From Myxococcus eversor (lineage in GTDB: Bacteria; Myxococcota; Myxococcia; Myxococcales; Myxococcaceae), in assembly GCF_010894455.1 (NCBI RefSeq), contig NZ_JAAIXY010000016.1, forward strand, positions 124,001-188,000: a stretch of DNA of 64,000 bases, given 5' to 3'. Under the pieces are notes generated by a model. That model did no database searches, was not told where the DNA came from, and saw only the letters and a list, made by a program, of their open reading frames with translations. The position numbers and the translations under genes are program-made. Each line of letters starts with the position of its first letter. Positions within the stretch are counted from its first letter, which is position 1. Below, piece by piece: positions 6,688-36,042 of the stretch.

Positions 6688-6838
6688 TCCGCGCCCGGCA
6701 GAAGAGGCCCTACACGCTCTCGGACTTCGCTGGTTCGAATCCAGCTCCCTCCGCCATCTGGAGGGATAGCCAAGCGGTCGACGGCACCAGACTTCCATCT
6801 GGCAGGTCTTCCTCACGGCTTCCTCACTCGGGCGCGGA
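6688..6838 (+). ncRNA. Y RNA A: permuted tRNA(Gly-like) module closed by a long stem
   Basis: A 10-bp closing stem pairs 6688-6697 with 6829-6838. After a 3x3 internal loop (GCA/ACT), an inner stem pairs 6701-6709 with 6817-6825 (one A-C mismatch, one G-U). Inside lies a circularly permuted tRNA. The T-arm comes first (6729-6745, loop TTCGAAT), then the acceptor 3' strand 6746-6752, G, CCA and TCT, then the acceptor 5' strand 6760-6766 (a perfect 7-bp stem). Next come TA, a D-arm at 6769-6785 with a GG pair, and an anticodon-like arm at 6787-6802 with loop CTTCCA. That loop is one base short of tRNA-Gly(UCC). Bacterial Y RNAs of the YrlA type are known tRNA mimics, and two more copies lie near the TROVE gene. 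Confidence 0.85.
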
Positions 6839-13577: not shown

Positions 13578-14327
13578 TCACGCTTCCTCCCCTCGTGGCG
13601 ACTCTCGCTGGAGATCCAGCAGGTAGAGCTTCAAGTAGGCCTGGGCGCGACTGACGCGCTTGTAGGAGTTGACCACGGTGATGTTCAGCCGACGTGCGCA
13701 TTCCTCGTGATCCTCCACGTCCTCGTGGTGATACAGCTCCCATGCCGAGGCTTCCTTGGGGTGCTCCTGCTGGAGCCGGGCGAACGCGGCCCAGTACAGC
13801 TCCTGGGCATCCGCGCGCTCCTCGGTCCTCCGGCCCAGCTCCACGGCGCGAGACCGCTCCGATGGAGACTCTTCCATGGCGTCATCGGGGTCCGACGGAG
13901 GCGCCGCGAGCTCCTCGCGGTGCCGCCGGTAGAAGTCGATGGCGACGTGCTTGACGATGCGCAGGAAGAACGTCTTGGGAGACGCGCTCCGGCCTGGCAT
14001 CTGTTGGGAGATGCCACGGAACTGATCCAACCCGCGGTCGAGGAACTTGCCGACCGCGTCCTGAAAGAGCTCATCCGAGTCCGCTGGGGACCCGCGGCCG
14101 TAGCTCGCCTGAATCTTGCTGATGACATACCGGGCAGGCCGGTTCCATCGCTGGACCAACGTACCGAGCGGGCCTCCAATGGGCTCGCCCGAAGCGCGGC
14201 GGCGGACCACCTCCGCGAACAATTCGTCATCCGTGAGTTGCTCGAACACCGGAAGGACCTGAGGGCTGTGCCCGGAGAACCGCCCCGGGAGATGGGGATA
14301 CAGGGATGTGGCGCGGCAAGGTACCAC
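13578..14327 (-). CDS. ECF-type RNA polymerase sigma factor
   Basis: The 249-residue protein has region 2 landmarks (S-P-K-T-F-F-L-R-I-V-K-H-V-A-I-D-F-Y-R-R-H) and a C-terminal region 4-like helix-turn-helix ending R-L-N-I-T-V-V-N-S-Y-K-R-V. The central acidic linker (D-P-D-D-A-M-E-E-S) is typical of ECF factors. The true start could be downstream, near L-P-V-F-E-Q-L. Its downstream neighbour is the zinc-finger protein on the same strand. Its upstream region contains Y RNA B on the opposite strand, 200 bases away. Confidence 0.78.
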   Translation of the reverse strand: MVPCRATSLYPHLPGRFSGHSPQVLPVFEQLTDDELFAEVVRRRASGEPIGGPLGTLVQRWNRPARYVISKIQASYGRGSPADSDELFQDAVGKFLDRGLDQFRGISQQMPGRSASPKTFFLRIVKHVAIDFYRRHREELAAPPSDPDDAMEESPSERSRAVELGRRTEERADAQELYWAAFARLQQEHPKEASAWELYHHEDVEDHEECARRLNITVVNSYKRVSRAQAYLKLYLLDLQRESPRGEEA

Positions 14328-14526: not shown

Positions 14527-14655
14527 GAGCGCCCGGCCCGAGAGGCCCTACACGCAGTGGTTCGACTCCACACCCCCACCACCCGGTGGGACGACGCCGG
14601 GCGGACCGGCACTGACCTCGTAAATCAGCCCGCCGGCCTCTCGACTCGGGCGCTC
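14527..14655 (+). ncRNA. Y RNA B: permuted tRNA(Thr-like) module closed by a long stem
   Basis: The closing stem is a perfect 9 bp (14527-14535 with 14647-14655), followed by the same GCC/ACT internal loop as copy C and a perfect 9-bp inner stem (14539-14547 with 14635-14643). The enclosed part reads T-arm (14557-14571, loop TTCGACT), a closed acceptor-like hairpin (14575-14580 with 14585-14590, loop ACCC), D-arm (14596-14610 with GG) and an anticodon-like arm (14612-14628). That arm has the canonical loop CTCGTAA, anticodon CGU for threonine with U33 and A37/A38. Inner-stem sequence differs from copy C but pairing is kept, which is covariation. Confidence 0.88.
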
Positions 14656-14681: not shown

Positions 14682-15389
14682 ATGTCCCCCCGCACCATCG
14701 TCATCGGAGACCTCCATGGCTGCCACGACGAGGCCCTGGAGCTGCTCGCCAAGGTGGGGGCCACGTCCAGCGACCGCGTCATCTTCGCCGGGGACCTGGT
14801 GGACCGGGGCCCGAAGCCCCGCGAGTGCGTGGAGCTGGCGATGCGGCACGAGGCCATCCTCGGCAATCACGAGGAGAAGCACCTCCAGCAGCGCCACCGC
14901 GAGGACAGCCGCCTGCTGCCGGACCACCTGGCGACGCGACAGGCCCTCGACGCCACGCACTACGACTGGATGGCGGCGCTGCCCCACTACATCCGCCTGC
15001 CCGAGCACAACGCCCTCGTCGTGCACGCCGGCATGCTGCCCGACCTCCCCGTCGAGGCGCAGGACCCCTACCACCTGCTCCACGCGCAGTGCATCCAGCC
15101 ACCCGGCAAGAAGAGCTACTGGCCGTCCAAGGCACCGGAGGGCTGGACGTTCTGGACCCATCACTGGAAGGGGCCGGAGCGGGTCATCTTCGGACACACC
15201 GTCTTCGACCAGCCGCTCGTCACCGAGCACGCAGTGGGTATCGACACCGGCTGCGTGTATGGCCGCTCACTGACGGCGGTGGTGCTGCCCACGTGGGAGC
15301 TCGTCTCCGTGCCCGCCCGGAAGTCCCACCGGAGTGGCAAGGACGTGGCGCGCATCCCCATCCACGGCGACGTGTGCGTCTTCTCCTGA
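14682..15389 (+). CDS. PPP-superfamily metallophosphatase (ApaH/PrpE/Pnkp-phosphatase type)
   Basis: The ATG follows a GAAGGAG site only 26 bases after Y RNA B. The 235-residue protein shows the complete PPP motif series: G-D-L-H-G-C at residues 9-14, G-D-L-V-D-R-G near 38-44, G-N-H-E near 61-64, a later V-V-H-A-G and F-G-H-T. Relatives cleave diadenosine tetraphosphate, protein phosphates, or, in bacterial Pnkp, RNA 2'- and 2',3'-cyclic phosphates. Its place between two Y RNAs and upstream of a TROVE gene makes an RNA-end-healing role attractive, but that is inference. Confidence 0.88.
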   Translation: MSPRTIVIGDLHGCHDEALELLAKVGATSSDRVIFAGDLVDRGPKPRECVELAMRHEAILGNHEEKHLQQRHREDSRLLPDHLATRQALDATHYDWMAALPHYIRLPEHNALVVHAGMLPDLPVEAQDPYHLLHAQCIQPPGKKSYWPSKAPEGWTFWTHHWKGPERVIFGHTVFDQPLVTEHAVGIDTGCVYGRSLTAVVLPTWELVSVPARKSHRSGKDVARIPIHGDVCVFS

Positions 15390-15413: not shown

Positions 15414-15547
15414 GCGCCCGGCCGACGGGGCCAGACACGCCTGAGAGATGCGGGTTCGAGTCCCGCCGACGGCCGTCAGGCCTCGTAGTTCAACTGGCAG
15501 AACACTGGACAGTCAATCCAGCAACACAGGCCTCGTCACTCGGGCGC
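15414..15547 (+). ncRNA. Y RNA C: permuted tRNA(Asp-like) module closed by a long stem
   Basis: The closing stem pairs 15414-15420 with 15541-15547, then GCC/ACT, then a 9-bp inner stem 15424-15432 with 15529-15537 (one G-U). Inside are a T-arm (15450-15466, loop TTCGAGT), a closed acceptor-like hairpin (15467-15474 with 15479-15485, one bulged C, loop GTCA), TA at 15486-15487 and a D-arm (15488-15503 with GG). An anticodon-like 5-bp arm follows (15505-15521) with loop CAGTCAA, which reads GUC (Asp) but has A where U33 is expected. The short motif ACACGC follows the inner stem in all three copies. It lies 160 bases upstream of the TROVE gene, the expected protein partner. Confidence 0.88.
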
Positions 15548-15707: not shown

Positions 15708-17474
15708 ATGACGACCCCGACGCAGAACACTCCGCTGCTGCCCGAGACGCAGCGTGGCCCCGCCGAGCGCCTGCTGGACCTGGTGCTCAGTGGCTCCGCG
15801 CACCTGTGGCACAACCGGCCGGGACTGGACGTGAATGGCACCTGGGTGGCCGCGGCGCACGCCACTCCGGCGCAGCGCACGCTCGGCAAGCCCGTGAAGC
15901 CGGGCCTCTTCGTGCCGGCGGCGGTGCGCCTCTACCGACAGCTGTTGGACATCCACCGACTCAACTCGGAGCTGATGGCGCACTTCGCGTCGTACGCGCT
16001 GACGCAGACGGACTGGCGTGACCTGAAGGTGGCCACGTGCGCGCTCATGCTGGTGCAGGAGCACGCGGGCCAGCCCGTCGTCGGCGAGGACGGGAAGGTG
16101 GCGTTCCACGACGATGACTGGCGGGCCATCGGCGAGGCCATGGTGCTGCACTACGAGCGCAAGTCCACGCGCATGCTCACGCCCAAGGCGGTGCTGCGAG
16201 TGGCGGAGCTGCTCGAGCTGCCGGACATCGCGCGCCTCAACCGAGAGGCGGGCTTCGGCGACCCGGCGTCTCGCAAGGCGCCCATGGGCCGCTGGAAGCG
16301 CGTGGCGTCCCGGTGGCTGGCGGCGCGTGAGGCCAACCTGCCGATGCTCCAGGGTCTGGTGAAGGCGGGCTACAAGGAGACGCTGAAGAAGCTGGCGCGC
16401 AAGGCGGGGTACAAGCCGCGCGCGCAGGGCTTCTTCGAGGTGCTCGGCTGGAAGCAGAAGCAGGCCGAGGGCGGGCACCGCACGGTGGGCCTGAGCGGGC
16501 TGACGTTGGTCAAGAGCCAGCGCTTCGACGGGTTGTCGGAGGCGGAGATCTGCGAGTGGATCGAGCTGGAGCGCCTCTCCTACAAGGAGGTGGTGGGCCG
16601 GCTGCCGAAGGACCTGGGCATGACTCCGGCCATCATGGCGGCGCTGCTGCCCTCGTTGTCGGACCGTGACTTGCGACTGATGACGCCGACGCTCGAGGAG
16701 CTGGGGCTGTTGGCGGAGCCCTCCGTGCGCGGGCGATGGGAGCTGGCCGTCCAGACGGCGACGGACCAGCGCGCGCTGAACATCGCGAAGAACGTGCGCA
16801 GCGACGTGCTGCGCCAGAAGCTGGAGGAGGCGAGCGACAACGCGGCACGACAGGCGGTGGCGGAGGCGACGGCGGAGACCGACGTGAGGGTGATGTTCCT
16901 CATCGACAAGTCGGGCTCCATGGAGGGCGCCATCGAGAACTCGAAGGAGGCGCTGGCGCGCATCCTCGCGGGCTTCCCGATGGAGAAGCTGCACATCGCG
17001 GCGTTCGACACGATGGGCACCGTCCTCAAGCCGAAGGCCGCCAACCGCACGGCGGTGCAGCACATGCTCGAGCGGCTCAAGGCGTCGGGCGGCACGACTC
17101 ACGCGGCCGGGGTGCATGCCCTGCACCGCGACGGCGTGAAGGTGCCTGAGGGGGCGAAGCTGGTGGTCATCGTCGTGGGTGACGAGGCGGGCGAGGCGGG
17201 TGACCAGTTCGCCCGCGCGTTCCGCGACTGCGGCTACACGGTGGCGGCGCTGGCGTTGCTGGTGAGCGTGGCGGGGGCCCGTGGCAACACGGTCCGCACG
17301 TGCGCGAGCTTCATGAAGGTGCCCTTCAGCGAGGTGAACGTGGACCAGTTCGCGGACCCGTACCAGGTCCCCCGGGTGCTCAAGGCGCTGCTGGATGCGC
17401 CGACTCAGCCCGGTGCCAGCCAGTCCGGCTGGGTGGAGCGGGTGATGCGCACGCCGTTGCTGAAGGTGGCGTGA
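15708..17474 (+). CDS. TROVE/vWA-domain protein, Ro60/Rsr-like Y-RNA-binding protein
   Basis: This 588-residue protein has a helical HEAT-like N-terminal region (about 20-380), the shape of the TROVE ring that binds misfolded RNA and Y RNA. A C-terminal vWA domain starts near residue 392 with V-M-F-L-I-D-K-S-G-S-M. MIDAS residues are visible: D400, S402, S404, a G-G-T-T-H near 461-465 and G-D-E-A-G-E later. In other bacteria Rsr works with Y RNAs and exoribonucleases such as PNPase in RNA quality control and stress survival. Here two Y RNAs lie directly upstream. It is the first gene of a three-gene operon. The TROVE call rests on architecture and context; the vWA part is certain. Confidence 0.85.
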   Translation: MTTPTQNTPLLPETQRGPAERLLDLVLSGSAHLWHNRPGLDVNGTWVAAAHATPAQRTLGKPVKPGLFVPAAVRLYRQLLDIHRLNSELMAHFASYALTQTDWRDLKVATCALMLVQEHAGQPVVGEDGKVAFHDDDWRAIGEAMVLHYERKSTRMLTPKAVLRVAELLELPDIARLNREAGFGDPASRKAPMGRWKRVASRWLAAREANLPMLQGLVKAGYKETLKKLARKAGYKPRAQGFFEVLGWKQKQAEGGHRTVGLSGLTLVKSQRFDGLSEAEICEWIELERLSYKEVVGRLPKDLGMTPAIMAALLPSLSDRDLRLMTPTLEELGLLAEPSVRGRWELAVQTATDQRALNIAKNVRSDVLRQKLEEASDNAARQAVAEATAETDVRVMFLIDKSGSMEGAIENSKEALARILAGFPMEKLHIAAFDTMGTVLKPKAANRTAVQHMLERLKASGGTTHAAGVHALHRDGVKVPEGAKLVVIVVGDEAGEAGDQFARAFRDCGYTVAALALLVSVAGARGNTVRTCASFMKVPFSEVNVDQFADPYQVPRVLKALLDAPTQPGASQSGWVERVMRTPLLKVA

Positions 17475-17503: not shown

Positions 17504-18523
17504 GTGGACTACCGGAAGTTCCTCGGGAAGGTGGAGTCGGCGGTGCTGCCGTATCTGGGCGGCGGCACCGTGGACACCGCTTCGCGCCGCCTCCGTGTCA
17601 CCTCCCCCGTGGCGCCGGGGTGGTGGCGCTTCGAGGTGAAGGGGCGGGAGGCCACGGCGTGCGAGCCGGCCAGTCCGGAAGGTCTGGACAGGCTGCCGCG
17701 CGTGCGAGGCCACATGTGGGGCTCGCGGCTGGTGCGCGAAGGCGCGGTGGCCGAGCCCCTGGAGTTGATGCCAGAGGAGGAGCCCGCCGTGCTCGCGCCC
17801 GTGAGTGCCCGGCGCTGGCACGACGGCTCGCTGCTGTTCGACGGGGTGGACTTCGAGGGCGAGGCGGAGGACCAGGCACGCCGTGCCCTGGAGGAGGGTC
17901 AGCCGCTCTCCACCGTGAAGGGCGTGAGCGCGCCGCTGCGGGCGGCCTATGGCTACGCGCTCTTGGGGTCGGCGTCCAGGACGCTGGGCATCCGCTTCGC
18001 ACCAGCGGAGACGCGCGGCCGGGTGCTGCGGGTGGCCGAGCAGGGCCGGACCGAGGCGGAGTCCTGTCTGCGGGCCCTGGTGGCGGAGCGAGAGGCCCAT
18101 CAGCGCGCGCTCGCGGCGAGGCTGCTGGCGGCGAACGTGCAAGCGCAGGCGGCACAGACAGCGGAGGCAGCGCGGGCCCGTGCCGTGGAGCTCGCGGAGA
18201 GGGCTCGGCGACACCTCGATGGCGCGGGGGCCCGACATGGGCGGGGTGCGCCAGTGGGCGACCACTCGCGCGCGGAGGTCGCGCTCCAGGGCGCGGGGGC
18301 GCGGTTGCTGAACCATCGAAGGATGGCGGGAAATCAGTTGGAGGTGACGTTCGCCTTCATGGGGGAGCGCTTCATCTCCGTCGTCGACGCGGGCACGCTC
18401 CAGGTCATCGACGCGGGCGTGTGTCTCGCGGGCGCGGACAGCGAGGTGACGCTGGAGAGCCTGCCCTCGGTCATCCGAGAGGCCATCGAGACGGACGTCC
18501 TGGTCATCACCCGGCACGGGTGA
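17504..18523 (+). CDS. unknown protein of the TROVE/Y-RNA operon
   Basis: A GTG start 29 bases after the TROVE gene, preceded by AAGGAGG, gives 339 residues. I do not recognise the family. The N-terminal 150 residues look globular with Trp-rich motifs (G-W-W-R-F-E-V, R-R-W-H-D-G-S). Residues 180-245 are an Ala/Arg/Glu-rich helix likely to be coiled coil. The last 60 residues form a compact beta/alpha unit (L-E-V-T-F-A-F-M-G-E-R-F, then V-I-D-A-G-V-C). No membrane segment or signal is seen. Tight spacing to both neighbours suggests it works with the Ro-like protein or with the JAB-like protein. Confidence 0.75.
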   Translation: MDYRKFLGKVESAVLPYLGGGTVDTASRRLRVTSPVAPGWWRFEVKGREATACEPASPEGLDRLPRVRGHMWGSRLVREGAVAEPLELMPEEEPAVLAPVSARRWHDGSLLFDGVDFEGEAEDQARRALEEGQPLSTVKGVSAPLRAAYGYALLGSASRTLGIRFAPAETRGRVLRVAEQGRTEAESCLRALVAEREAHQRALAARLLAANVQAQAAQTAEAARARAVELAERARRHLDGAGARHGRGAPVGDHSRAEVALQGAGARLLNHRRMAGNQLEVTFAFMGERFISVVDAGTLQVIDAGVCLAGADSEVTLESLPSVIREAIETDVLVITRHG

Positions 18524-18542: not shown

Positions 18543-18914
18543 ATGTCGATGCAAGAGGTGTGTCTGCTCATCGGTCGGGACGAGGAGGTGTTGTGGTGCG
18601 AGACCTCCGACAGTCCCGTCCTGCTGCCTGACTCCCGCACGCGGTGGGAGGCCATCTGGTACTGGCGTCACGAGCTGGTGGAGGTGGCGCACAGCCACCC
18701 CGAGGGCCCGCTCGGCTTCTCCACCGAGGATGAGACGACGATGACGGCGTTGACGGAGGCGCTCGGTCGCGCACCGCGCTTCTCCGTCGTGGCCCCCGGC
18801 GGCATGGTCGCCCGCGTCGAGGGCCGCGATGTCTGGGTCTCCGACGAGCCCTGGTGGGCCGAGCCCTTGCGCGAAGTCTCGGGAATGACTCACTCGCCCA
18901 TGGCGCGCGCGTAA
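18543..18914 (+). CDS. JAB/JAMM-like metalloprotease (isopeptidase-type)
   Basis: This 123-residue protein has the exact JAMM zinc signature H-x-H-x7-S-x2-D, as H50-S-H52, S60 and D63, set in A-H-S-H-P-E-G-P. JAB domains remove ubiquitin or ubiquitin-like tags and occur in bacterial E1/Ubl operons. The start is chosen at M-S-M-Q-E-V because GGAGGAG precedes it; it lies 19 bases after the preceding gene. The matching candidates for a tag and an E1 are about 10 kb away at 28.3-29.2 kb. The N-terminal part, before the metal site, is short, so the domain is compact. Confidence 0.8.
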   Translation: MSMQEVCLLIGRDEEVLWCETSDSPVLLPDSRTRWEAIWYWRHELVEVAHSHPEGPLGFSTEDETTMTALTEALGRAPRFSVVAPGGMVARVEGRDVWVSDEPWWAEPLREVSGMTHSPMARA

Positions 18915-22060: not shown

Positions 22061-22762
22061 TCACTCCAGCTCGGCCGCCTCACCGTCCGCGCGCCTGAGC
22101 GCGTTCACCAGCCGGTGCGCCTGTCGCGTGGTCTCCGGCTCGCGGTACTTCGGACTCGCCCGCAGCACCAACTCCACCGCCGTGGGCAGATCCATCAGAT
22201 GGCCTGGCGACACATACACGGGCTGAACCGCCTTGCGCGTGCGGACCGCCATCCCCACCACCTCTCCCCTGTGAATGATAGGTGACGTCGCGCCTCGCTC
22301 TTCGCCCAGCTTGCCGTGTGTCCCGACCAACAGGGACTTGCCACAGCCGATGGAGGGGACGCCGAACAACAACCCGCCATGGCTGGCGATGCCCAACCTG
22401 CGCGGGTGCGCGATGCCGTGCCCGTCGAAGATGAGCACGTCGGGCCGCACCGTGAGCCGCTCCCAGGCGACCGCCACCACGGGCAGCTCCCGGAAGGACA
22501 ACAGGCCTGGCACATACGGAAACCCGAGGGTCACCGCCGAGCCCGCCCGCGCCACCGGTGCAAGCGTGGCCGCGTCCAGCACCACGATGCCGCCGAAGCC
22601 CGTGTCGTTCCCTTTCTCCGTGGACACATCCGCGCCCGCGATGAGCTCCACTCGCAGACCCGGCGGAGGCCGGAGCACCACCCGGTCCTTGAGTTGACGT
22701 TGCAGCGCCACCGCCTCCGTCGGCGAGACATTCCAACGATGCATCTCCGGCTGAAGCTCCAT
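22061..22762 (-). CDS. nfi: endonuclease V
   Basis: The start at M-E-L-Q-P-E has an AGGAGGTGG site upstream and gives 233 residues, the family's usual length. Motifs are clear: I-A-G-A-D-V-S at 40-46, the long F-D-G-H-G-I-A-H-P-R near 110-120 and G-K-S-L-L after it. Endonuclease V nicks DNA (and RNA) one base 3' to deoxyinosine and starts repair of deaminated adenine. It stands alone between the GMC oxidoreductase gene and an exported protein gene on the other strand. The 298 bases in front of the next gene show no ORF or RNA that I can support. Confidence 0.93.
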   Translation of the reverse strand: MELQPEMHRWNVSPTEAVALQRQLKDRVVLRPPPGLRVELIAGADVSTEKGNDTGFGGIVVLDAATLAPVARAGSAVTLGFPYVPGLLSFRELPVVAVAWERLTVRPDVLIFDGHGIAHPRRLGIASHGGLLFGVPSIGCGKSLLVGTHGKLGEERGATSPIIHRGEVVGMAVRTRKAVQPVYVSPGHLMDLPTAVELVLRASPKYREPETTRQAHRLVNALRRADGEAAELE

Positions 22763-23060
22763 GCGGGGTCCACCTCCTGGTGCGTCTCCAGTCTGTGAAC
22801 CCGCATGGACTCGGCAACCCGGCACGACACTCGCGAGCGGGGTCTCCGTGGACCATCCAACGTCCTCACCGCCCCGAGGGGCCGAGCGCGTGTCCCCTGT
22901 CACACTGCCCTCCGGGTCCGGCCTGGAATGCCGAGGCACCGTGCCTACCGTGCTCGCTCCCAGGCATCGGTGAAGCCGCTCCCACGGACCTCTCCCCGAG
23001 CCACGCCTGGGTCATCACAGGGGCCGGCCCACGGGAGCGTCGCATGTTCGGGAGTCACTG

Positions 23061-28338: not shown

Positions 28339-28587
28339 ATGGCGACCCTGAACATCACCTATGACGGCATGTCCGCGGACGTGCCGGTGGAGCTGGACCG
28401 GCCGGTGTCCGACTCCGACGTGCGCCGCATCGCCGCGGAGCTGATTCGCGCGGGCGGAGTGCCCGGCCTGCACCTGGCGCACCTGCGCGACGACGTCTTC
28501 CAGCACTTCGTCGTGGACCGGTTCCGGGGTGCGCGTGGCGACGAGCGCATCTACCTGCGCCCCAAGGTGCCCTTCGGCGCCCGCTGA
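28339..28587 (+). CDS. small beta-grasp (ubiquitin-like) protein candidate
   Basis: The 82-residue protein starts at M-A-T-L-N-I after GAGGAGG. The predicted order is strand (L-N-I-T-Y-D-G), strand (A-D-V-P-V-E-L), a helix (S-D-S-D-V-R-R-I-A-A-E-L-I-R), then two short strands ending R-I-Y-L-R-P-K. This is the beta-beta-alpha-beta layout of ubiquitin-like folds. It ends G-A-R, not Gly-Gly, so conjugation is not proven; processing by a JAB protein could expose another end. The next gene, nine bases away, encodes a ThiF/E1-like enzyme, the usual partner of bacterial Ubls. The fold is inference from pattern and context. Confidence 0.6.
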   Translation: MATLNITYDGMSADVPVELDRPVSDSDVRRIAAELIRAGGVPGLHLAHLRDDVFQHFVVDRFRGARGDERIYLRPKVPFGAR

Positions 28588-28596
28588 GGAGAAGCC

Positions 28597-29178
28597 ATGC
28601 GCATCCTCTTCTGCGGTGTGGGCGCCATCGGCTCCCAGGCGGCCGTCCTGTGCCGCAACCTGGAGGCCACCCTGGTCTTCATCGACTTCGACCGGGTGGA
28701 GTCCAAGAACCTGCTCGCCCAGGCCTACGTGAAGCCCTCTGTCGGGAAGAACAAGGCCGAGGCCCTCAAGCTCCAGCTCCTCAACCTGCACGGCGTGAAG
28801 TCGGAGTCCTTCGGCGTGCGAGTCACCCGCGACAACGTGGCGGCCCTGTGTGGCGGCGCGGACCTGCTGGTGGACTGCTTCGACAACCAGGACAGCCGCC
28901 AGCTCCTCGGCGACTTTGCTCGGGGAGCAGGCAAGCCCCTGGTACACGGCGCGGTGAGCGCGGACGGGACTTTCGGCCTGGTCCGCTGGGACGAGCGATT
29001 CGTCCCGGATGCCGAGGACACCGCCGGGCAGGCCACCTGCGAGGGCGGCGCGCACCTGCCTCTCCTGGGCCTGCTGGCCGCCACCCTCGCCCGCTGCGTG
29101 CAGGACTTCGTCAAGCAGGGCATCAGGCGGGACGCACTCGTGAACCTCTCCTCCGTCGTCCCCACCTCGAGTCACTGA
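28597..29178 (+). CDS. ThiF/E1-like adenylyltransferase, small form
   Basis: The 193-residue protein is a minimal Rossmann-type E1 domain. G-V-G-A-I-G is at residues 7-12. I-D-F-D-R-V-E-S-K-N-L-L-A-Q at 29-42 matches the E1 pattern D-x-D-x-V-x-x-x-N-L-x-R-Q, except that Ala replaces the conserved Arg. K53 and V-D-C-F-D-N (92-97) fit the ATP site. C148 in T-C-E-G is a possible acceptor cysteine. E1 enzymes adenylate the C-terminus of ubiquitin-like proteins. It starts nine bases after the beta-grasp-like gene. At under 200 residues it lacks the extra domains of MoeB or canonical E1. Confidence 0.85.
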   Translation: MRILFCGVGAIGSQAAVLCRNLEATLVFIDFDRVESKNLLAQAYVKPSVGKNKAEALKLQLLNLHGVKSESFGVRVTRDNVAALCGGADLLVDCFDNQDSRQLLGDFARGAGKPLVHGAVSADGTFGLVRWDERFVPDAEDTAGQATCEGGAHLPLLGLLAATLARCVQDFVKQGIRRDALVNLSSVVPTSSH

Positions 29179-29226
29179 CGTGATTTGACCAAGACGTCAC
29201 ACCCCACGCCCCACGCGGAGCCTCCC

Positions 29227-30432: not shown

Positions 30433-30517
30433 GGGGACGTAGAGCGTTACGGCAGACGCGCGGGCCTGTAGAGCCCGAGCCCGACAGGGCCTGCTGGGTT
30501 CAACTCCCAGCGTCCCC
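30433..30517 (+). tRNA. tRNA-Tyr(GTA), class II
   Basis: A perfect 7-bp acceptor stem (GGGGACG/CGTCCCC), D-stem GCGT/ACGC, anticodon loop CTGTAGA (GTA), a long variable hairpin GCCC-GACA-GGGC as in bacterial tRNA-Tyr, and T-arm with TTCAACT. Discriminator A; CCA is not encoded. Confidence 0.88.
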
Positions 30518-30567
30518 ATGCTCCGCACGAGCAGGGCTGCATCATCCAAACCCAGACGTAATTTTCC

Positions 30568-30637
30568 AGGGGTATAGCTCAAAGGCAGAGCACTCGCTTG
30601 ATAAGCGGGTGATCCCGGTTCGACTCCGGGTACCCCG
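30568..30637 (+). tRNA. tRNA-Ile(GAT)
   Basis: Acceptor strand AGGGGTA faces TACCCCG with an A-G mismatch at the first pair. D-arm GCTC/GAGC, anticodon arm CTCGC/GCGGG with loop TTGATAA (GAT), T-arm CCCGG/CCGGG with TTCGACT. The variable loop has four bases. Confidence 0.82.
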
Positions 30638-30644
30638 ACTCCAT

Positions 30645-30716
30645 GTTGGCCGAAGGCGATTGGTGAGCCACCGGGATGTGACCCCGGGGAAGAGGGTTCG
30701 ATTCCCTCCGGTCAAC
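30645..30716 (+). tRNA. tRNA-His(GTG)
   Basis: Seven acceptor pairs with one G-U, D-stem GGC/GCC, anticodon stem CCGGG/CCCGG with loop ATGTGAC (GTG), T-arm GAGGG/CCCTC. Discriminator C is as in tRNA-His, but the base before position 1 is T, so the usual G-1 identity base is not encoded. Confidence 0.8.
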
Positions 30717-30795
30717 CTGACAGTCCCAGCTCTCTGACAACTGAATCGTCGTGGTGAATGCACGCCGCCTGCTCACACAGGGGTGGCGGCAAAAT

Positions 30796-30865
30796 GCCTC
30801 CGTAGCTCATTGGTAGAGCATCCGCCTCTTAAGCGGACGGCGAGGGTTCGAATCCCTCCGGAGGT
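30796..30865 (+). tRNA. tRNA-Lys(CTT)
   Basis: Acceptor GCCTCCG/CGGAGGT (G-U first pair), D-arm GCTC/GAGC, anticodon stem TCCGC/GCGGA with loop CTCTTAA, T-arm GAGGG/CCCTC with TTCGAAT, discriminator A. The 79 bases before it hold nothing I can name. Confidence 0.88.
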
Positions 30866-30883
30866 ACTCGAAGCAGCAGCAAC

Positions 30884-30953
30884 GCGGGTGTCGTCCAGCG
30901 GCAGGATGGCGGTTTCCCATACCGTCGACACGGGTTCGAATCCCGTCACCCGC
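30884..30953 (+). tRNA. tRNA-Gly(CCC)
   Basis: Acceptor GCGGGTG/CACCCGC is perfect. D-arm GTCC/GGAT, anticodon loop TTCCCAT (CCC) on a 5-bp stem with one G-U, T-arm ACGGG/CCCGT with TTCGAAT, and discriminator T as expected for glycine. Confidence 0.86.
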
Positions 30954-30973
30954 TTCACATGTGTCACTTCCAT

Positions 30974-31044
30974 ACCGGAGTCGTCTAATCAGCAGGATGG
31001 CGGATTCTGACTCCGCAGGCGCAGGTGCGATTCCTGCCTCCGGT
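30974..31044 (+). tRNA. tRNA-Gln(CTG)
   Basis: Acceptor ACCGGAG/CTCCGGT, anticodon stem GCGGA/TCCGC with loop TTCTGAC (CTG), T-stem GCAGG/CCTGC. The T-loop is TGCGATT, with G where position 55 is normally T, so the usual pseudouridine site is absent. Confidence 0.82.
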
Positions 31045-31064
31045 TCTCTCTTCACGCAGCACAT

Positions 31065-31135
31065 TCCCCGGTAGCTCAATGGCAGAGCGCGCGGCTGTTA
31101 ACCGCGAAGTTGGGGGTTCGAGTCCCTCCCGGGGA
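31065..31135 (+). tRNA. tRNA-Asn(GTT)
   Basis: Acceptor TCCCCGG/CCGGGGA, D-arm GCTC/GAGC with GG, anticodon stem CGCGG/CCGCG with loop CTGTTAA, T-arm with TTCGAGT, and discriminator G as in asparagine tRNAs. Confidence 0.88.
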
Positions 31136-31154
31136 GCTTGCAACAGACGCAACT

Positions 31155-31223
31155 GGCCAGTTCCGCCCGGGGTGGCAACGGTCTGCAAAACCGTTTGGGA
31201 CGGGTTCGACTCCCGTATTGGCC
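31155..31223 (+). tRNA. tRNA-Cys(GCA)
   Basis: Acceptor GGCCAGT/ATTGGCC with one G-U, D-stem GCC/GGC, anticodon stem ACGGT/ACCGT with loop CTGCAAA, T-arm ACGGG/CCCGT, and discriminator T, the cysteine identity base. Confidence 0.86.
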
Positions 31224-31234
31224 TCACTTTCATT

Positions 31235-31306
31235 GCCGACCTGGCGTAGGTGGTCCGCGCGCCCGTCTGAAGAGCGGGAGGACTCGGTTCGATTCCGAGG
31301 GTCGGC
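31235..31306 (+). tRNA. tRNA-Phe(GAA)
   Basis: Acceptor GCCGACC/GGTCGGC, D-stem GCG/CGC with loop containing GG, anticodon stem CCCGT/GCGGG with loop CTGAAGA, T-arm CTCGG/CCGAG, discriminator A. Confidence 0.86.
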
Positions 31307-31330
31307 ACTTCGCAGCACGTTTCACTTCAT

Positions 31331-31397
31331 AGGCTGCGCTCCGGGAGCAGCTTGGACTCCAAATCCGAGCGCGCGGGGTTCAACTCCCTGGCGGCCT
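31331..31397 (+). tRNA. tRNA-Trp(CCA) with minimal D-arm
   Basis: Acceptor AGGCTGC/GCGGCCT, anticodon arm TTGGA/TCCGA with loop CTCCAAA, T-arm CGGGG/CCCTG, discriminator G. Only 14 bases separate the acceptor and anticodon stems. They form GCTC-CGG-GAGC, so positions 8-9 are missing and the D-loop has three bases. Confidence 0.78.
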
Positions 31398-31406
31398 GCT
31401 CGTTTC

Positions 31407-31479
31407 GCCCCTGTAGCTCAACTGGTAGCAGCACCGGTTTCGTAAACCGGGGGTTGTCGGTTCGAACCCGACCGGGGGC
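31407..31479 (+). tRNA. tRNA-Thr(CGT)
   Basis: Acceptor GCCCCTG/CGGGGGC, D-stem GCT/AGC with GG in the loop, anticodon stem CCGGT/ACCGG with loop TTCGTAA, T-arm GTCGG/CCGAC with TTCGAAC, discriminator A. Confidence 0.86.
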
Positions 31480-31506
31480 ACTTCACGCAACACGCAGTCG
31501 TCACAT

Positions 31507-31577
31507 GGGTTCGTGGCTCAATGGGAGAGCACTCGGTTTGCACCCGAGGGGTTCCGGGTTCGAGTCCCGGCGGATCC
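31507..31577 (+). tRNA. tRNA-Ala(TGC)
   Basis: Acceptor GGGTTCG/CGGATCC carries the G3-U70 pair that marks alanine tRNAs. D-arm GCTC/GAGC, anticodon stem CTCGG/CCGAG with loop TTTGCAC, T-arm CCGGG/CCCGG, discriminator A. It is the only member with U34. Confidence 0.88.
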
Positions 31578-31584
31578 ACTTCAT

Positions 31585-31657
31585 GCCCTTGTAGCTCAGT
31601 GGATGAGAGCGCACGGTTCCGAACCGTGAGGTCGCAGGTTCAATCCCTGCCAGGGGC
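31585..31657 (+). tRNA. tRNA-Arg(CCG)
   Basis: Acceptor GCCCTTG/CAGGGGC, D-arm GCTC/GAGC, anticodon stem CACGG/CCGTG with loop TTCCGAA, T-arm GCAGG/CCTGC with TTCAATC, discriminator A. Confidence 0.87.
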
Positions 31658-31681
31658 ACTCGCTTCAGCCAAAGCCATTCC

Positions 31682-31755
31682 GCTTCCGTAGCTCAGTGGA
31701 TTCAGAGCAGGCGCGTCCTAAGCGCGAGGTCGCAGGTTCGAATCCTGCCGGGAGC
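31682..31755 (+). tRNA. tRNA-Arg(CCT)
   Basis: Acceptor GCTTCCG/CGGGAGC, D-arm GCTC/GAGC, anticodon loop GTCCTAA (CCT) on GGCGC/GCGCG, where the outer G-G does not pair. T-arm GCAGG/CCTGC, discriminator A. A T-rich run (31769-31775) follows. Confidence 0.83.
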
Positions 31756-31776
31756 ACACACGTTTCACGTTTTTTC

Positions 31777-31846
31777 TGCGGGGAGAGGCTGGTGCCTCAC
31801 CGGGCCTCATAAGCCTGGCCTCCAGGGTTCGACTCCCTGCTCCGCA
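31777..31846 (+). tRNA. tRNA-Met(CAT)
   Basis: Acceptor TGCGGGG/CTCCGCA with a normal T1-A72 pair, so probably an elongator type. D-stem GAGGC/GCCTC with the four-base loop TGGT, anticodon stem CGGGC/GCCTG with loop CTCATAA, T-arm CAGGG/CCCTG. Confidence 0.82.
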
Positions 31847-31855
31847 ACTCTTCAT

Positions 31856-31927
31856 GCACGCCGAGCCAGCTGGAGACGGCGACGGTCCCACACACCGTTT
31901 TCGCCGGGTTCGATCCCCGGGGCGTGC
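31856..31927 (+). tRNA. tRNA-Val(CAC)-like with C33
   Basis: Acceptor GCACGCC/GGCGTGC is perfect, D-stem GCC/GGC, anticodon stem ACGGT/ACCGT, T-arm CCGGG/CCCGG. The loop is CCCACAC: anticodon CAC, but position 33, almost always U, is C. Confidence 0.8.
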
Positions 31928-31947
31928 ACTCGTATTTCCGTGGTCTT

Positions 31948-32020
31948 GCCGGTGTAGCCCAATGGGTAGAGGTGCCAGGTCGAGAACCTGGAGGATGCGG
32001 GTTCGACTCCCGCCACCGGC
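31948..32020 (+). tRNA. tRNA-Leu(GAG)-like with C33 and short variable loop
   Basis: Acceptor GCCGGTG/CACCGGC, anticodon stem CCAGG/CCTGG, T-arm GCGGG/CCCGC. The seven-base loop TCGAGAA places GAG at 34-36 with C at 33. The variable loop has only five bases, although leucine tRNAs are normally class II, so amino-acid identity is uncertain. Confidence 0.75.
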
Positions 32021-32076
32021 ACTGTCGTCGCAGTCCGTAGCCCGCAGTCGCAAGTCAGCAGGACATCCCGAAGTCC

Positions 32077-32149
32077 GTCCGCGTAGCCCAAACGGGAGAG
32101 GCCGCCGGCTCAAACCCGGCACAGTGCGAGTTCGACTCTCGCCGCGGAT
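32077..32149 (+). tRNA. tRNA-Leu(CAA)-like with short variable loop
   Basis: Acceptor GTCCGCG/CGCGGAT (G-U first pair), D-stem GCC/GGC, anticodon stem GCCGG/CCGGC with loop CTCAAAC, T-arm GCGAG/CTCGC. The variable loop is five bases (ACAGT) instead of the long leucine arm. Confidence 0.78.
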
Positions 32150-32170
32150 ACAACCGAAAGGCGTTGCGTC

Positions 32171-32713
32171 ATGGAGACGCTGGTTCTCAGTCAGTCCTTC
32201 GAGCCCGTCGCGCGGATTCCCTGGCAGCGCGCGGTGATGCTCATCTTCCAGGGCAAGGTCGAGGTGGTCGAGGAGTACGAGGACCGCTTCGTGCGCTCGG
32301 TGACGGTGGAGATCCGCATGCCCTCCGTCATTCGTTTCTTCCGCGGGCTGCGCAAGGGCCCCAAGGGCGTGAAGTTCAGCCGGGAGAACGTCTACCTGCG
32401 AGACCGCTGCCGCTGCCAGTACTGCGGCCTCAAGGTGTCTCGCGCTGAGGCGACGTATGACCACGTCCTGCCTCGGGCCCAGGGTGGCCGCACGTCCTGG
32501 GACAACGTCGTCATCGCGTGTGTGCCCTGCAACCAGAGGAAGGGCAACCGGACTCCGGAGCACGCGAAGATGGCGCTGCGCTGCGCCCCGGTGAAGCCCA
32601 AGAAGCTGCCGGACGCGATGCACCTGACGTTCGTCTTCGAGCAGGGCATGCCCATGTCGTGGGCCAAGTTCCTGAGGGACGTGGCGTACTGGCATGGCGA
32701 GTTGGAGGATTGA
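32171..32713 (+). CDS. HNH endonuclease embedded in the tRNA array
   Basis: The 180-residue protein has a basic N-terminal half with a K-G-P-K-G-V-K patch and a C-terminal HNH/zinc module. That module holds C-R-C-Q-Y-C-G, then Y-D-H-V-L-P-R-A-Q-G-G, W-D-N-V-V-I-A-C and C-N-Q-R-K-G-N-R-T-P. The His-Asn-Asn catalytic pattern and two Cys pairs are intact, so a metal-dependent nuclease is expected. The gene starts 21 bases after the last leucine tRNA-like unit and is followed by three serine tRNAs, so it is probably on the same transcript. Related HNH proteins are common in bacteria and usually of unknown target; a role in cutting or trimming array RNA is speculation. Confidence 0.88.
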   Translation: METLVLSQSFEPVARIPWQRAVMLIFQGKVEVVEEYEDRFVRSVTVEIRMPSVIRFFRGLRKGPKGVKFSRENVYLRDRCRCQYCGLKVSRAEATYDHVLPRAQGGRTSWDNVVIACVPCNQRKGNRTPEHAKMALRCAPVKPKKLPDAMHLTFVFEQGMPMSWAKFLRDVAYWHGELED

Positions 32714-32744
32714 GGTCCCAGGACGGTGCGCCTGGAGGGGATGA

Positions 32745-32784
32745 GGAGGTCCGCCAGAGGCGGCCTCCCGCCCATGGACCTCCC
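32745..32784 (+). other. nested inverted repeats after the HNH gene
   Basis: GGAGGTCC and GGACCTCC form an 8-bp inverted repeat, and CCGCC-AGA-GGCGG nests inside it. The two hairpins share bases and cannot both form fully. No T-run follows. It may be a processing or termination signal between the HNH gene and the serine tRNAs. Confidence 0.4.
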
Positions 32785-32826
32785 CGCGAGCCGGCAGGCG
32801 GGTGCGCTGCTGCCGGCGACTTTTCT

Positions 32827-32911
32827 GGAAGACCGACGCTGGAGGCCGGCGGCCCGTTTCGAAAACGGTGCGGGTGCATGACGCGCTCGGGGTTCGAGTC
32901 CCCTGTCTTCC
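32827..32911 (+). tRNA. tRNA-Ser(CGA), class II
   Basis: Acceptor GGAAGAC/GTCTTCC, anticodon loop TTCGAAA (CGA) on a 4-bp stem with a C-T next to it, a long variable arm containing GCG/CGC, T-arm GGGG/CCCC with TTCGAGT, and discriminator G typical of serine. Confidence 0.82.
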
Positions 32912-32921
32912 GCTGTGACTT

Positions 32922-33005
32922 GGAGCATGCGGGCCGGGTGGCCGGCCGCCTGGCTGGAAACCAGGAGAGCCCTTCGGGGCTCGTGGTTCGACTCCACCGT
33001 GTTCC
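32922..33005 (+). tRNA. tRNA-Ser(GGA), class II
   Basis: Acceptor GGAGCAT/GTGTTCC with two G-U pairs, anticodon stem CCTGG/CCAGG with loop CTGGAAA, a strong variable hairpin GAGCCC-TTCG-GGGCTC, T-arm GTGG/CCAC, and discriminator G. Confidence 0.86.
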
Positions 33006-33022
33006 GCTCGCTTCACATGTTT

Positions 33023-33109
33023 GGAAGTTGGACTGGCGATGGCGCCAGGCCCCGCTGCTACCGGGTGCGAGCCGGCCTTCCGGCTTGAGGTTCGAGTCCT
33101 CCGACTTCC
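33023..33109 (+). tRNA. tRNA-Ser(GCT), class II
   Basis: Acceptor GGAAGTT/GACTTCC, a six-pair D-arm CTGGCG/CGCCAG, anticodon stem CCCG/CGGG with loop CTGCTAC, variable hairpin AGCCGG-CCTT-CCGGCT, T-arm GAGG/CCTC, and discriminator G. Confidence 0.84.
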
Positions 33110-33164
33110 GCTTCCCTCCGGCCTCGGGCCAGGGGATTCCGGCCACCCGCCGGGATTGCGCGCT

Positions 33165-33222: not shown

Positions 33223-36042
33223 ATGGCGACGAGGAAGAGCGAGGACCAGGAGCGACTCATCGACCGGGACCTGACCGCGTTGGCCCGAGAGGGTCGGCTG
33301 CCGGCCGCGCATGGCGTAGACGCCGCGGTGACGGAGGTTCTGGGACTGCTGACGCGCGGTGGCAAACACCCGCTGCTGGCGGGAGACCCCGGCGTGGGCA
33401 AGAGCGCGCTCGTGCAGGAGGTGGCGCGCCGCATCGCCGAGGGACGCGTGGACGCGGAGCTGACGCAGTCGCGTCTGGTAGAGGTGTCCGTCGCCAACAT
33501 CCTCGCGCGCAGCACCCAGCGACAGGCCGCGGAGAGCTTCGAGGAGCTGCTGGCCCACCTGGCGCGGCACCCCTGTCCCATCGTCTACATCCGAGACCTG
33601 CCGGCCGCGCTGGGCGGGCCCCTGGCCCCCGTGGCCGTGCGCGCGCTGCGCACCGGAGGCCTGCGCTTCATCTTCGAGACAGAGCCCAAGCGCGTGCAGG
33701 AGCTGCTGCGCTCCGACGAGGCGCTCGCGGAGCGGCTGCACCTGCTCCCCCTGCACGAGCCCCCGCTGGAGAAGGCGCGCTGGATACTGGGCCGGGTGGC
33801 GGAGGAGCTGGAGCGCGAGCTGCGCCTGCCCATCGACCCGGCCGCGTGCGATTTGGCCCTGCGGCTGTCGTCCAAGTTCCTGCTGGCGCAGCGCATGCCG
33901 CGCAAGGCCATCGAGCTCTTGAAGGAGACGGCGGCGGAGGCCGCGAGCGCGGCCAAGGACCACGTCGGTCCCGAGGACGTGCTCACCCGCTTCTGTTCCG
34001 CCACGCGCCTGCCGCGCTTCGTGGTGGACGACGCCATGCCGTTGGACCTGGAGGAGACGGAGCGCTTCTTCGGAGAGCGGCTGCTCGGCCAGACGGACGC
34101 GGTGGGCGCGGTGCTGCGCTCGGTGGCGCTGCTCAAGGCGGGGTTGAACGACCCGCGCCGGCCGCTGGGCGTGTTCCTGTTCGCCGGCCCCACGGGCGTG
34201 GGAAAGACGCAGCTCGCGAAGCTGCTGGCGGAGTACCTCTTCGGCTCGGCGGACAGGCTGGTGCGCCTGAACATGGCGGACTACCCCAACGACGGTGACG
34301 AGAGCGTGCCCTTCGGCGCGTCCTGGGCCCCGGCGCTGGAGACGCGTCGCGGAGAGCTGAGCGCGCTCCTGGACGGCAAGGTGTTCTCCGTGCTGCTGCT
34401 CGACGAGTTCGAGAAGGCCGCGCGCAGCGTGCACGACCGCTTCCTCCAGCTCTTCGACGAGGGCACCTTCGTCAACGGCGCGGGCGAGGTCGTCTCGTGC
34501 AACAACACGCTCATCGTCGCCACGTCCAACGTGGGCGCGGAGGTGTACCGGGAGCCCGCCATGGGCTTCGCGGGCACCAAGCGCGCGGACGAGATGGTGT
34601 CGGAGGTCGACCGCCGCATCGGCGAGGCCTTCCGCCCCGAGTTCCTCAACCGCTTCGACGCCATCTGTCACTTCCAGCCCCTGTCCAAGGTGGACATCCG
34701 CAAAATCGCGCAGCGCGAGGTCGGCCGCGTGCTGGAGCGAGAGGGCATCCGCGCGCGCTCCCTGGACGTGGAGGTGACGCCCGAGGTCGTCGACCGGCTG
34801 GTGGAGCGCGGCTACTCGCCCCAGTTCGGCGCGCGCTACCTCCAGCGGGAAATCGAGAAGACGCTCACCGCGGCGCTGGCCGTGGAGATTGCGCGCAAGC
34901 CGCTGCCCCCTGGCACCCCCGTGCGCGTGGAAGCACGCCCCGGAGGCCGGGTCATCGCGGTGGCCGAGCCCGCCGCCCCACTGCCCTCCCCCACCGCGCA
35001 GCTGCTGTTGCCGTCCGCACGGGCGACGCCGGTGAAGCGGCGGCTGGACCGCAAGTCGCTGCTGGTGGAGATGGACCGGCTGGTGGGCAAGGCCCGCTCG
35101 CTGGCGGCCTCCGCTGGGCGGCCGGAGATGGAGGAGCGCCGCACGTCCCTGCTGACGGAGACGCAGGCGCCCAACCTCTGGGACGACCCCACGCACGCGG
35201 CGGATGTCATCCGGGCCTTCCGGACAGTCGAGGCCCACCTCAACGAGATGGAGCGACTGGAGGCCGCGTGTCTCTTCGGGCGGCGCCTGGTGCGCGAGGC
35301 GAAGAACGAAGTGCAGCTCGCCTCCGCGGCCCGGCAGGTTGAAGACGTCGCGCGCGAGGTGCAGATGGCGGAGGCGCTCCACGCCTCCGGCTCCACCACC
35401 CTGGACAATGAAGCGCTGGTGGACATCTGCGCGAGCGACTCGGCGGAGACACAGGAGGCGTGGGTGCAGGAATTGGCCACCATGTACCTGGGCTGGGCGC
35501 AGCGGCGCGGCTACGAGGCGGTAGCGGTGGCGGAAGCCGACGAGCCGGCCCGCGTCGTGGTGCGCATCGCCGGCCCCGGAGCCTACGGCTTCCTCGCGGG
35601 CGAGGCGGGCATGCACCGACGGCTGGAGGACGAGAAGCGCCAGCGCGCCTATGTCCGCGTGCACCGGGGCGGCGCTCTCTCGGAGGAGGAGCTGGAGCTG
35701 CTGGAGGTGCTGGGCCGGCCCGTGAAGAGCCATGAGGGCACCTATCTCCAGCGCGTGCGCACCGAGGTGACGGTGAAGGACGAGTCCACCGGCCGGGTGC
35801 TGACGCTCACGGGCGCGGGCGAATTGGACGAGCTGAAGGACATCGCCGCTCGCGTGGTGGCCGGACAGGGCGGAAGCACGGACGAGGTGCGGCGCTACTA
35901 CCTGGGCCGCAGCGCGCGGGTGGAGGACCCTCGCACCGGCGCCGGGACTCCTCGCGTGAAGGACGTGCTGCGCGGCGAGCTGGACGTGTTCATCGCCGCG
36001 TGGATTTCGCGCCCGCCGTCGGAGCCCCCGCTGGGGAGCTGA
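33223..36042 (+). CDS. ClpA/B-like double AAA+ unfoldase fused to an RF2-like domain without GGQ
   Basis: The 939-residue protein begins directly with AAA+ module 1 (Walker A G-D-P-G-V-G-K-S at 54-61); no Clp N-domain is present. Module 2 has G-P-T-G-V-G-K-T near 322-329, L-L-L-D-E-F-E-K as Walker B, and a ClpB-type C-terminal subdomain with G-A-R-Y-L-Q-R-E-I-E. From about residue 607 it resembles release factor 2: W-D-D-P in the first helix region, M-Y-L-G-W-A-Q-R-R-G-Y, A-Y-G-F-L-A-G-E-A-G-M-H-R, and V-E-D-P-R-T-G at the end. The peptidyl-hydrolase loop that should read G-A-G-G-Q is S-H-E-G-T-Y-L-Q (about 835-842), so hydrolysis is not expected. It follows the serine tRNAs by 113 bases. I infer recognition of stalled or damaged ribosomes coupled to ATP-driven remodelling. 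Confidence 0.9.
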   Translation: MATRKSEDQERLIDRDLTALAREGRLPAAHGVDAAVTEVLGLLTRGGKHPLLAGDPGVGKSALVQEVARRIAEGRVDAELTQSRLVEVSVANILARSTQRQAAESFEELLAHLARHPCPIVYIRDLPAALGGPLAPVAVRALRTGGLRFIFETEPKRVQELLRSDEALAERLHLLPLHEPPLEKARWILGRVAEELERELRLPIDPAACDLALRLSSKFLLAQRMPRKAIELLKETAAEAASAAKDHVGPEDVLTRFCSATRLPRFVVDDAMPLDLEETERFFGERLLGQTDAVGAVLRSVALLKAGLNDPRRPLGVFLFAGPTGVGKTQLAKLLAEYLFGSADRLVRLNMADYPNDGDESVPFGASWAPALETRRGELSALLDGKVFSVLLLDEFEKAARSVHDRFLQLFDEGTFVNGAGEVVSCNNTLIVATSNVGAEVYREPAMGFAGTKRADEMVSEVDRRIGEAFRPEFLNRFDAICHFQPLSKVDIRKIAQREVGRVLEREGIRARSLDVEVTPEVVDRLVERGYSPQFGARYLQREIEKTLTAALAVEIARKPLPPGTPVRVEARPGGRVIAVAEPAAPLPSPTAQLLLPSARATPVKRRLDRKSLLVEMDRLVGKARSLAASAGRPEMEERRTSLLTETQAPNLWDDPTHAADVIRAFRTVEAHLNEMERLEAACLFGRRLVREAKNEVQLASAARQVEDVAREVQMAEALHASGSTTLDNEALVDICASDSAETQEAWVQELATMYLGWAQRRGYEAVAVAEADEPARVVVRIAGPGAYGFLAGEAGMHRRLEDEKRQRAYVRVHRGGALSEEELELLEVLGRPVKSHEGTYLQRVRTEVTVKDESTGRVLTLTGAGELDELKDIAARVVAGQGGSTDEVRRYYLGRSARVEDPRTGAGTPRVKDVLRGELDVFIAAWISRPPSEPPLGS

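Follow-up and report, generated by a model that had tools for sequence, protein, structure and literature searches.

A predicted JAB/JAMM protease gene of Myxococcus eversor lies in a co-inherited unit with Ro60-type, putative ubiquitin-like, and E1-like genes

Introduction

Bacterial Ro60 ribonucleoproteins and bacterial ubiquitin-like (Ubl) systems have hitherto been studied as separate subjects. A stretch of 64,000 nucleotides from Myxococcus eversor (contig NZ_JAAIXY010000016.1, positions 124,001 to 188,000; here "the window") raises the question of whether the two can belong together. In the window, a small gene with a JAB/JAMM-like motif follows a putative TROVE (Ro60-type) gene, and candidate Ubl and E1 genes lie nearly 10 kb farther on. 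An original prediction, made from the sequence alone, held that these separated genes might share one conjugation module. Here, we ask whether the JAB-like gene is what its motif suggests, whether it is inherited with the Ubl and E1 genes, and what the combined genes might do. Beyond what had been predicted, the analysis brought in a catalytic glutamate (E5), a further protein that we call X, Y RNAs, a supernumerary tRNA array, a connection to phages, and a C-terminal tail on the Ubl.

Results

The plus-strand open reading frame at positions 18543 to 18914 encodes a 123-amino-acid protein containing the segment HSHPEGPLGFSTED, which reads H50-x-H52-x7-S60-x2-D63. The upstream catalytic glutamate is E5 (in QEVCLLIG), at the position expected for JAMM proteins. 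The predicted metal motif was borne out: E5, H50, H52, P53, S60, and D63 were invariant in 29 JAB homologues from myxobacteria, Verrucomicrobiota, and jumbo phages, and the catalytic set was likewise invariant in all 11 myxobacterial sequences aligned. The window protein fell below the gathering cutoff of the Pfam Prok-JAB model (21.9 bits, E = 1.7 × 10−4; cutoff of 25), and 28 of the 29 family members matched that model (best E value, 3.4 × 10−7). Because the catalytic residues are invariant and nearly the whole family matches Prok-JAB, the motif is not a chance resemblance. At the level of sequence, the product is confirmed as a JAB/JAMM protein; an isopeptidase role is plausible and, like zinc-dependent (iso)peptidase activity itself, only inferred.

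Co-occurrence was assessed in a single sample of 117 Myxococcota genomes for JAB, TROVE, Ubl, and E1 alike. Every one of the 37 genomes with JAB also carried TROVE, Ubl, and the orthologous E1 (orthologues were well separated from paralogues by score; at least 143 versus at most 60 bits). A full-length TROVE-like protein was found in 38 genomes, these 37 plus G002, and the same 38 had the Ubl and orthologous E1. G002 was thus alone in having TROVE, Ubl, and E1 without JAB, and its Ubl ends exactly in PFG. Frequent occurrence of JAB beside TROVE without the Ubl/E1 pair would have refuted the prediction of a shared module; no genome of the 117 had JAB without that pair.

Gene order was compared in 59 loci obtained by scanning GTDB contigs with the TROVE alignment and in 31 IMG/VR viral contigs with a TROVE locus. 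Wherever all five genes were held by one locus (49 loci; 25 phage, 24 bacterial), they followed the order TROVE, X, JAB, Ubl, E1 on one strand. The genes are contiguous outside Myxococcaceae, being adjacent in Polyangia-type genomes, one Verrucomicrobiota metagenome-assembled genome, and jumbo phages; JAB and Ubl are contiguous in 12 bacterial loci, and G106, from another family, has all five genes within 4 kb. The 9.4 kb between JAB and Ubl in the window is an insertion of Myxococcaceae type whose size differs by genus. Given the contiguity in Polyangia-type, Verrucomicrobiota, and phage loci, the two islands of the window are one operon, broken by insertion in Myxococcaceae. The idea of a module split over 10 kb is therefore supported both by co-occurrence (37/37) and by this contiguity, and the Ubl and E1 placed at 28.3 to 29.2 kb are real genes (28339 to 28587 and 28597 to 29178, the latter matching ThiF with E = 7 × 10−20). 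We conclude that, as far as genomic comparison can establish it, the TROVE/Ro60, X, JAB, Ubl, and E1 genes form one co-inherited unit of fixed order.

In the TROVE tree, the chromosomal copies of Myxococcota clustered together, separate from those of phages. Four loci from metagenome-assembled genomes (L115 to L118) fell within the phage part and may themselves be phage contigs; the direction of transfer is unresolved. Within Verrucomicrobiota, the unit was found in 1 of 194 genomes and is therefore rare there. Laboratory strains of Myxococcus xanthus also carry the operon (L143). A plasmid search with the JAB protein gave no match, and one based on E1 led to cyanobacterial plasmids carrying TROVE, X, Ubl, E1, and tRNAs. 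PADLOC made no system call, only E1 resembling the E1-E2 proteins of candidate defense systems, and PHROGs yielded no informative family. A nucleoside hydrolase at 29185 was considered as a further member and left out, since it is not conserved beside E1. Two other neighbors were noted. An Endonuclease V-like open reading frame, read by eye, lies on the minus strand within the insertion between JAB and Ubl (22061 to 22939). The unit also adjoins a divergent ECF-like sigma factor gene (13578 to 14327, minus strand), conserved in several Myxococcaceae and present in G106 (locus L101); its product may regulate the unit.

The first gene of the unit (15708 to 17474, plus strand) encodes helical repeats followed by a C-terminal vWA domain with an intact MIDAS, of which D400, S402, S404, T463, and D492 were invariant in 30 TROVE sequences. 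For its AlphaFold model (pLDDT of 83), the ten best Foldseek matches were all Ro60/TROVE structures (Ro60, Rsr-type, a "Trove domain" structure, and phage Ro60). Alignment to 1yvp_A gave a Z score of 15.1 over 436 residues, and against Ro60/Rsr overall the model matched the helical-repeat ring and vWA domain over ∼430 residues (Z of 14 to 15). The Pfam TROVE model did not match the window protein at E ≤ 1, only vWA models doing so, and a sequence-profile search of TROVE, JAB, Ubl, and X against solved structures gave no useful relative beyond vWA. The description of the locus as a TROVE operon therefore stands at the level of fold but is without a Pfam TROVE match, an absence that divergence can explain and that does not preclude membership, since a Pfam match is not required of Ro60/TROVE proteins. 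The modeled product is taken to have a Ro60 fold; RNA binding is inferred, in the absence of binding data.

Alignment of Myxococcaceae intergenic DNA revealed a conserved element upstream of the TROVE gene. In the window, predicted Y RNA 1 (134 nt; 15414 to 15547, plus strand) lies 161 bp upstream of TROVE and consists of a Ro-binding stem around a circularly permuted tRNA-like domain. Within the long stem (GCGCCCGGCCGAC...GTCACTCGGGCGC), the tRNA-like elements follow one another in permuted order: T-arm, closed acceptor stem, D-arm, and anticodon-like arm. Rfam YrlA matched part of this RNA below its cutoff (28.5 bits, E = 3 × 10−4; cutoff of 69), and double changes were kept in 4 of the 28 predicted pairs (19 aligned sequences). 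With the Y RNA covariance model (R1), the 11.4-Mb genome gave only five hits, of which three fall in the window; Y RNA 2 (125 nt; 14529 to 14653; 78.8 bits) and Y RNA 3 (145 nt; 6691 to 6835; 68.7 bits) are on the plus strand with the same architecture, and the two remaining copies lie elsewhere in the genome (C113 and C46).

Similar RNAs accompany the unit elsewhere. In bacteria, they lie upstream of TROVE, and Polyangia-type loci have them in tandem there (L155 having about seven). Five to seven stand directly upstream of TROVE in L155 (8710 to 9921) and L158 (8877 to 9894). Many phage contigs have at least one Y RNA just after E1 (e.g., at 65 bp in L180, 197 bp in L190, and 220 bp in L203). 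Three loci appear to hold a complete, nonpermuted tRNA within the Y RNA stem (L159, 9794 to 9921; L163, 9807 to 9932; L157, 1974 to 2100), and permuted forms occur in related loci. Single "tRNAs" called by ARAGORN just upstream of TROVE (L151, L155, L158, L159, and L163) proved to be tRNA-like domains of Y RNAs rather than array tRNAs and were excluded from tRNA counts. Y RNAs with tRNA-like domains are hence encoded beside the unit, and their binding by the TROVE protein is a prediction. Between Y RNA 2 and Y RNA 1 lies a PrpE/Pnkp-like metallophosphatase gene (14682 to 15389), which is conserved upstream of TROVE in several Myxococcaceae and was not found beside TROVE in outgroup loci; its product could act on RNA ends.

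Downstream of E1, the window holds an array of 20 tRNA genes (30433 to 33111, plus strand). The 60 tRNAs found at other tRNA sites of the genome include every anticodon of the array, which is thus supernumerary and conforms to the definition of a tRNA L-array (a long supernumerary array). tRNAs occurred within 7 kb downstream of E1 in 18 of 30 Myxococcaceae genomes, compared to about 2% expected by our estimate from tRNA density, and some contigs end sooner than 7 kb; in L114, they begin about 450 bp after E1. This adjacency is not universal, as 12 of the 30 genomes had no tRNAs in the stretch examined. In phage Rctr197k, about 30 tRNAs end 84 bp before TROVE. The ∼22-kb TROVE loci of 14 large phage contigs contained about 205 of their 521 tRNAs, versus about 31 expected, a sum that combines the counts of two programs and to which 2 of the 14 contigs contribute no excess; phages L179 and L209 have their arrays elsewhere and not at the unit. 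A Kovacikia plasmid carries 33 tRNAs in the 19-kb stretch holding the unit (L178).

Several neighboring genes were observed along the way. On Kovacikia minuta plasmid pA, a PolyA_pol/CCA-adding-enzyme-like gene lies between TROVE and X (L176, 3096 to 3893). HNH endonuclease genes are found near tRNAs on a metagenomic contig (L102, 4806 to 5564) and in phage Rctr197k (L174, 436 to 2235), paralleling neighbors reported for other tRNA arrays. After the array of the window, at 33223 to 36042, an open reading frame looks, from inspection by eye only, like a ClpB-type AAA+ ATPase followed by a sequence resembling an RF-2 type peptide release factor.

Protein X (339 amino acids; 17504 to 18523, plus strand) is predicted to comprise two OB-like beta domains, a long coiled coil, and a C-terminal alpha-beta domain arranged as a helix, a four-stranded sheet, Cys307, and a helix (model pLDDT of 92). 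Cys307, within D-x-G-[VILM]-C, was invariant in 29 homologues and is retained in the phage and cyanobacterial proteins. Foldseek searches of PDB and BFVD with X returned nothing below an E value of 0.01; the weak fold matches included an Mpa-type tandem OB (Z of 5.3) and an RWD-type domain of Spc25 (Z of 4.0 over 62 residues), and no E2 was listed among them, which does not exclude that one exists. On the model, the C-terminal domain is possibly RWD/E2-like, making X a candidate E2-like protein or adaptor. Because these matches are weak and no E2 is listed, E2 function remains a hypothesis, no better than a guess. X may instead be an RNA-binding adaptor without E2 activity, with E1 passing the Ubl directly to targets or to Ro60 or X itself. 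The tandem OB-like domains and coiled coil would suit such an adaptor, as would the weak fold evidence for an E2; moreover, several minimal Ubl systems lack an E2, and transfer without an E2 has been put forward for certain minimal systems of bacteria or archaea. The invariance of Cys307, extending to phage and cyanobacterial X, counts against a mere adaptor. We keep this reading as a serious possibility, albeit one that we somewhat doubt.

The E1-like protein (193 amino acids; 28597 to 29178, plus strand) is a bare ThiF/MoeB-type adenylation domain of ∼190 residues, in which the ATP-site residues and the cysteine (G7, G9, G12, D30, D32, N38, Q42, K53, D96, and C148) are invariant. Membership in the PRTRC set was rejected, as the PRTRC ThiF model scored 27.3 bits against a cutoff of 144.75 and the neighbors are TROVE, X, and JAB, not the PRTRC set. 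The affinity of E1 bears on the main rival to protein tagging, namely, that the Ubl is a sulfur carrier like TtuB, Urm1, or ThiS, with E1 forming a thiocarboxylate that thiolates the system's tRNAs or Y RNAs and JAB trimming the precursor. Sulfur transfer to tRNA would accord with an E1 closest to ThiF/MoeB models and with a system tied to tRNAs and tRNA-like RNAs, and a JAB-trimmed Ubl with a terminal glycine fits either chemistry. However, the conserved five-gene set includes no rhodanese, cysteine desulfurase, or PP-loop tRNA thiolase (TtuA/Ncs6), although host enzymes encoded elsewhere are not excluded, and X, despite its invariant cysteine, is not modeled as a PP-loop protein. We therefore consider the sulfur carrier unlikely.

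The putative Ubl precursor (82 amino acids; 28339 to 28587, plus strand) ends in ...RPKVPFG|AR, of which the two residues after Gly80 are predicted to be removed. No Pfam model matched it; its identity rests only on size, place, and the C-terminal glycine, and a beta-grasp fold is inferred. Gly80 was invariant in 28 aligned members (context, ...RPK[VT][PA]FG), and the Ubl of cyanobacterial plasmids ends in ...RPEAVYG. The residues after the glycine vary (A, AR, AC, AS, CL, RV, SSAR, and GSCCGS), with the longest tails, up to about 60 amino acids, in phage Rctr197k and L118.

Tail and JAB were strongly associated. A tail was present in 45 of 49 loci with intact JAB and in none of six where JAB was absent (L115, L117, L160, and cyanobacterial L176 and L177) or truncated (L165), all six ending exactly at glycine (Fisher P = 7 × 10−6, uncorrected for relatedness; L163, L184, and L208 were excluded because their Ubl ends are unreadable or odd). 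On searching the genomes, L115 and L160 proved to lack JAB, L117 gave only a match that is not credible (E = 0.68), and L165 had a truncated copy; for L176 and L177, its absence is known from the plasmid records only. A close pair shows the same pattern, L150 having JAB and the tail CL, and L160 having no JAB and ending in PFG. Because tail presence matches JAB presence, JAB most likely matures the Ubl precursor by trimming the tail, the best-supported role that can be assigned to it by comparison. JAB cannot be solely a maturase, since four loci with intact JAB have no tail (L167, L179, L186, and L195), which suggests a second role such as deconjugation. These four loci could also be taken to mean that JAB is mainly a deconjugase stripping the Ubl from targets, the tail correlation arising merely because the C terminus of the Ubl is less constrained. 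Against this, loci without a working JAB always end at glycine (0/6 with a tail), including the L150/L160 pair, as expected if a tail is harmful where JAB is absent; we find that account improbable. Finally, the sub-cutoff Pfam score and the 9.4-kb distance to Ubl might have suggested that a small, unrelated protein carries the motif by chance and that TROVE, Ubl, and E1 are its neighbors by accident; this reading is ruled out by the invariant catalytic set in 29 homologues, the Prok-JAB matches across the family, the perfect co-occurrence, and an order kept across phyla and phages.

Discussion

We lean toward the view that, in this unit, a Ro60-Y RNA ribonucleoprotein serves as the base of a Ubl conjugation system, recognizing that conjugation and substrate are inferred, with no conjugate, substrate, or expression data. 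The Ro60-type protein would bind its own Y RNAs and, should these become scarce or be displaced, would turn to structured RNA that is aberrant or resembles tRNA. JAB would cut the Ubl precursor after Gly80, here removing AR, and may also strip the Ubl from targets. These first two steps, TROVE RNA binding and Ubl maturation, are inferences but well supported. E1 would then adenylate Gly80 and load the Ubl onto its own Cys148; adenylation is an inference that follows from the family. The last two steps, transfer through X and protein tagging, are hypotheses: Cys307 of X would take over the Ubl, which the OB domains and coiled coil of that protein would keep at the ribonucleoprotein. Under translation stress or tRNA-damage stress, the Ubl would then be joined to proteins that sit on the RNA-bound particle or close to it, and the spare tRNA array would replace lost tRNAs. 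A bolder version, which we offer tentatively and would not expect to hold in full, is an RNP-directed Ubl ligase in which Ro60 and tRNA-mimicking Y RNAs form an RNA-sensing scaffold and X serves as E2, tagging proteins on damaged or mimicked tRNA. Jumbo phages would use it against host tRNA-targeting defenses, myxobacteria would have domesticated it, and the tRNA array would be a replacement stock.

The unit shares features with several known systems. Like the Ro60 (Rsr)-Y RNA/YrlA system exemplified by rsr-yrlBA-rtcBA of Salmonella (PMC7790460), it combines a Ro60-fold protein bearing a MIDAS vWA domain, an adjoining Y RNA with a tRNA-like domain, and a link to tRNA damage. The unit differs in having five genes without RtcB/RtcA and instead with Ubl, E1, JAB, and X; in a TROVE protein too divergent for the Pfam TROVE model; and in Y RNAs set in tandem, some apparently enclosing a whole tRNA. 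With the predicted prokaryotic Ubl/E1/E2/JAB operons of types 6a to 6e, catalogued by Iyer et al. in 2006 (PMC1779556), and with PRTRC, CBASS Cap2/Cap3, and Bil/Bub, it shares a small Ubl with a C-terminal glycine, a ThiF-type E1, a JAB protease, and a candidate cysteine-bearing E2-like partner. Unlike those systems, this unit is tied to a Ro60 ribonucleoprotein and Y RNAs, its Ubl has no Pfam match, its E1 is a bare ∼190-residue adenylation domain, and no similarity between X and the E2 families on record was detected.

Inducible or supernumerary tRNA arrays are known from Anabaena (the L-array; PMC10272220, PMC9938897) and mycobacteria (PMC5966550). They resemble those described here in having 20 to 30 redundant tRNAs per array, in their location on plasmids and phages, and in their reported HNH neighbors, but the sections available of these three papers mention no Ro60/Ubl unit beside the arrays. 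Phage-encoded Ro60 homologues are likewise on record, as TROVE genes of jumbo phages (PMC7824862) and as a Ro60-like protein of cluster C/AF mycobacteriophages (PMC12363180); unlike here, what is accessible of these reports describes no Ubl, E1, or JAB partner genes. No account joining Ro60-Y RNA, Ubl operons, and tRNA arrays was found in the openly licensed literature, itself seen partly in extracts; since coverage was limited to such works, prior mention of the unit is possible.

A joint unit allows a function of Ro60 other than RNA decay to be tested, and it names tRNA or RNA damage as a trigger that can be put to the test for a bacterial Ubl pathway. That the unit occurs in roughly 30 jumbo-phage contigs suggests that it takes part in the contest between phages and their hosts for tRNAs. 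Human Ro60 is paired, as an autoantigen, with the ubiquitin ligase Ro52. By analogy only, a genetically encoded bacterial link between Ro60 and a Ubl would therefore be of interest beyond microbiology as well.
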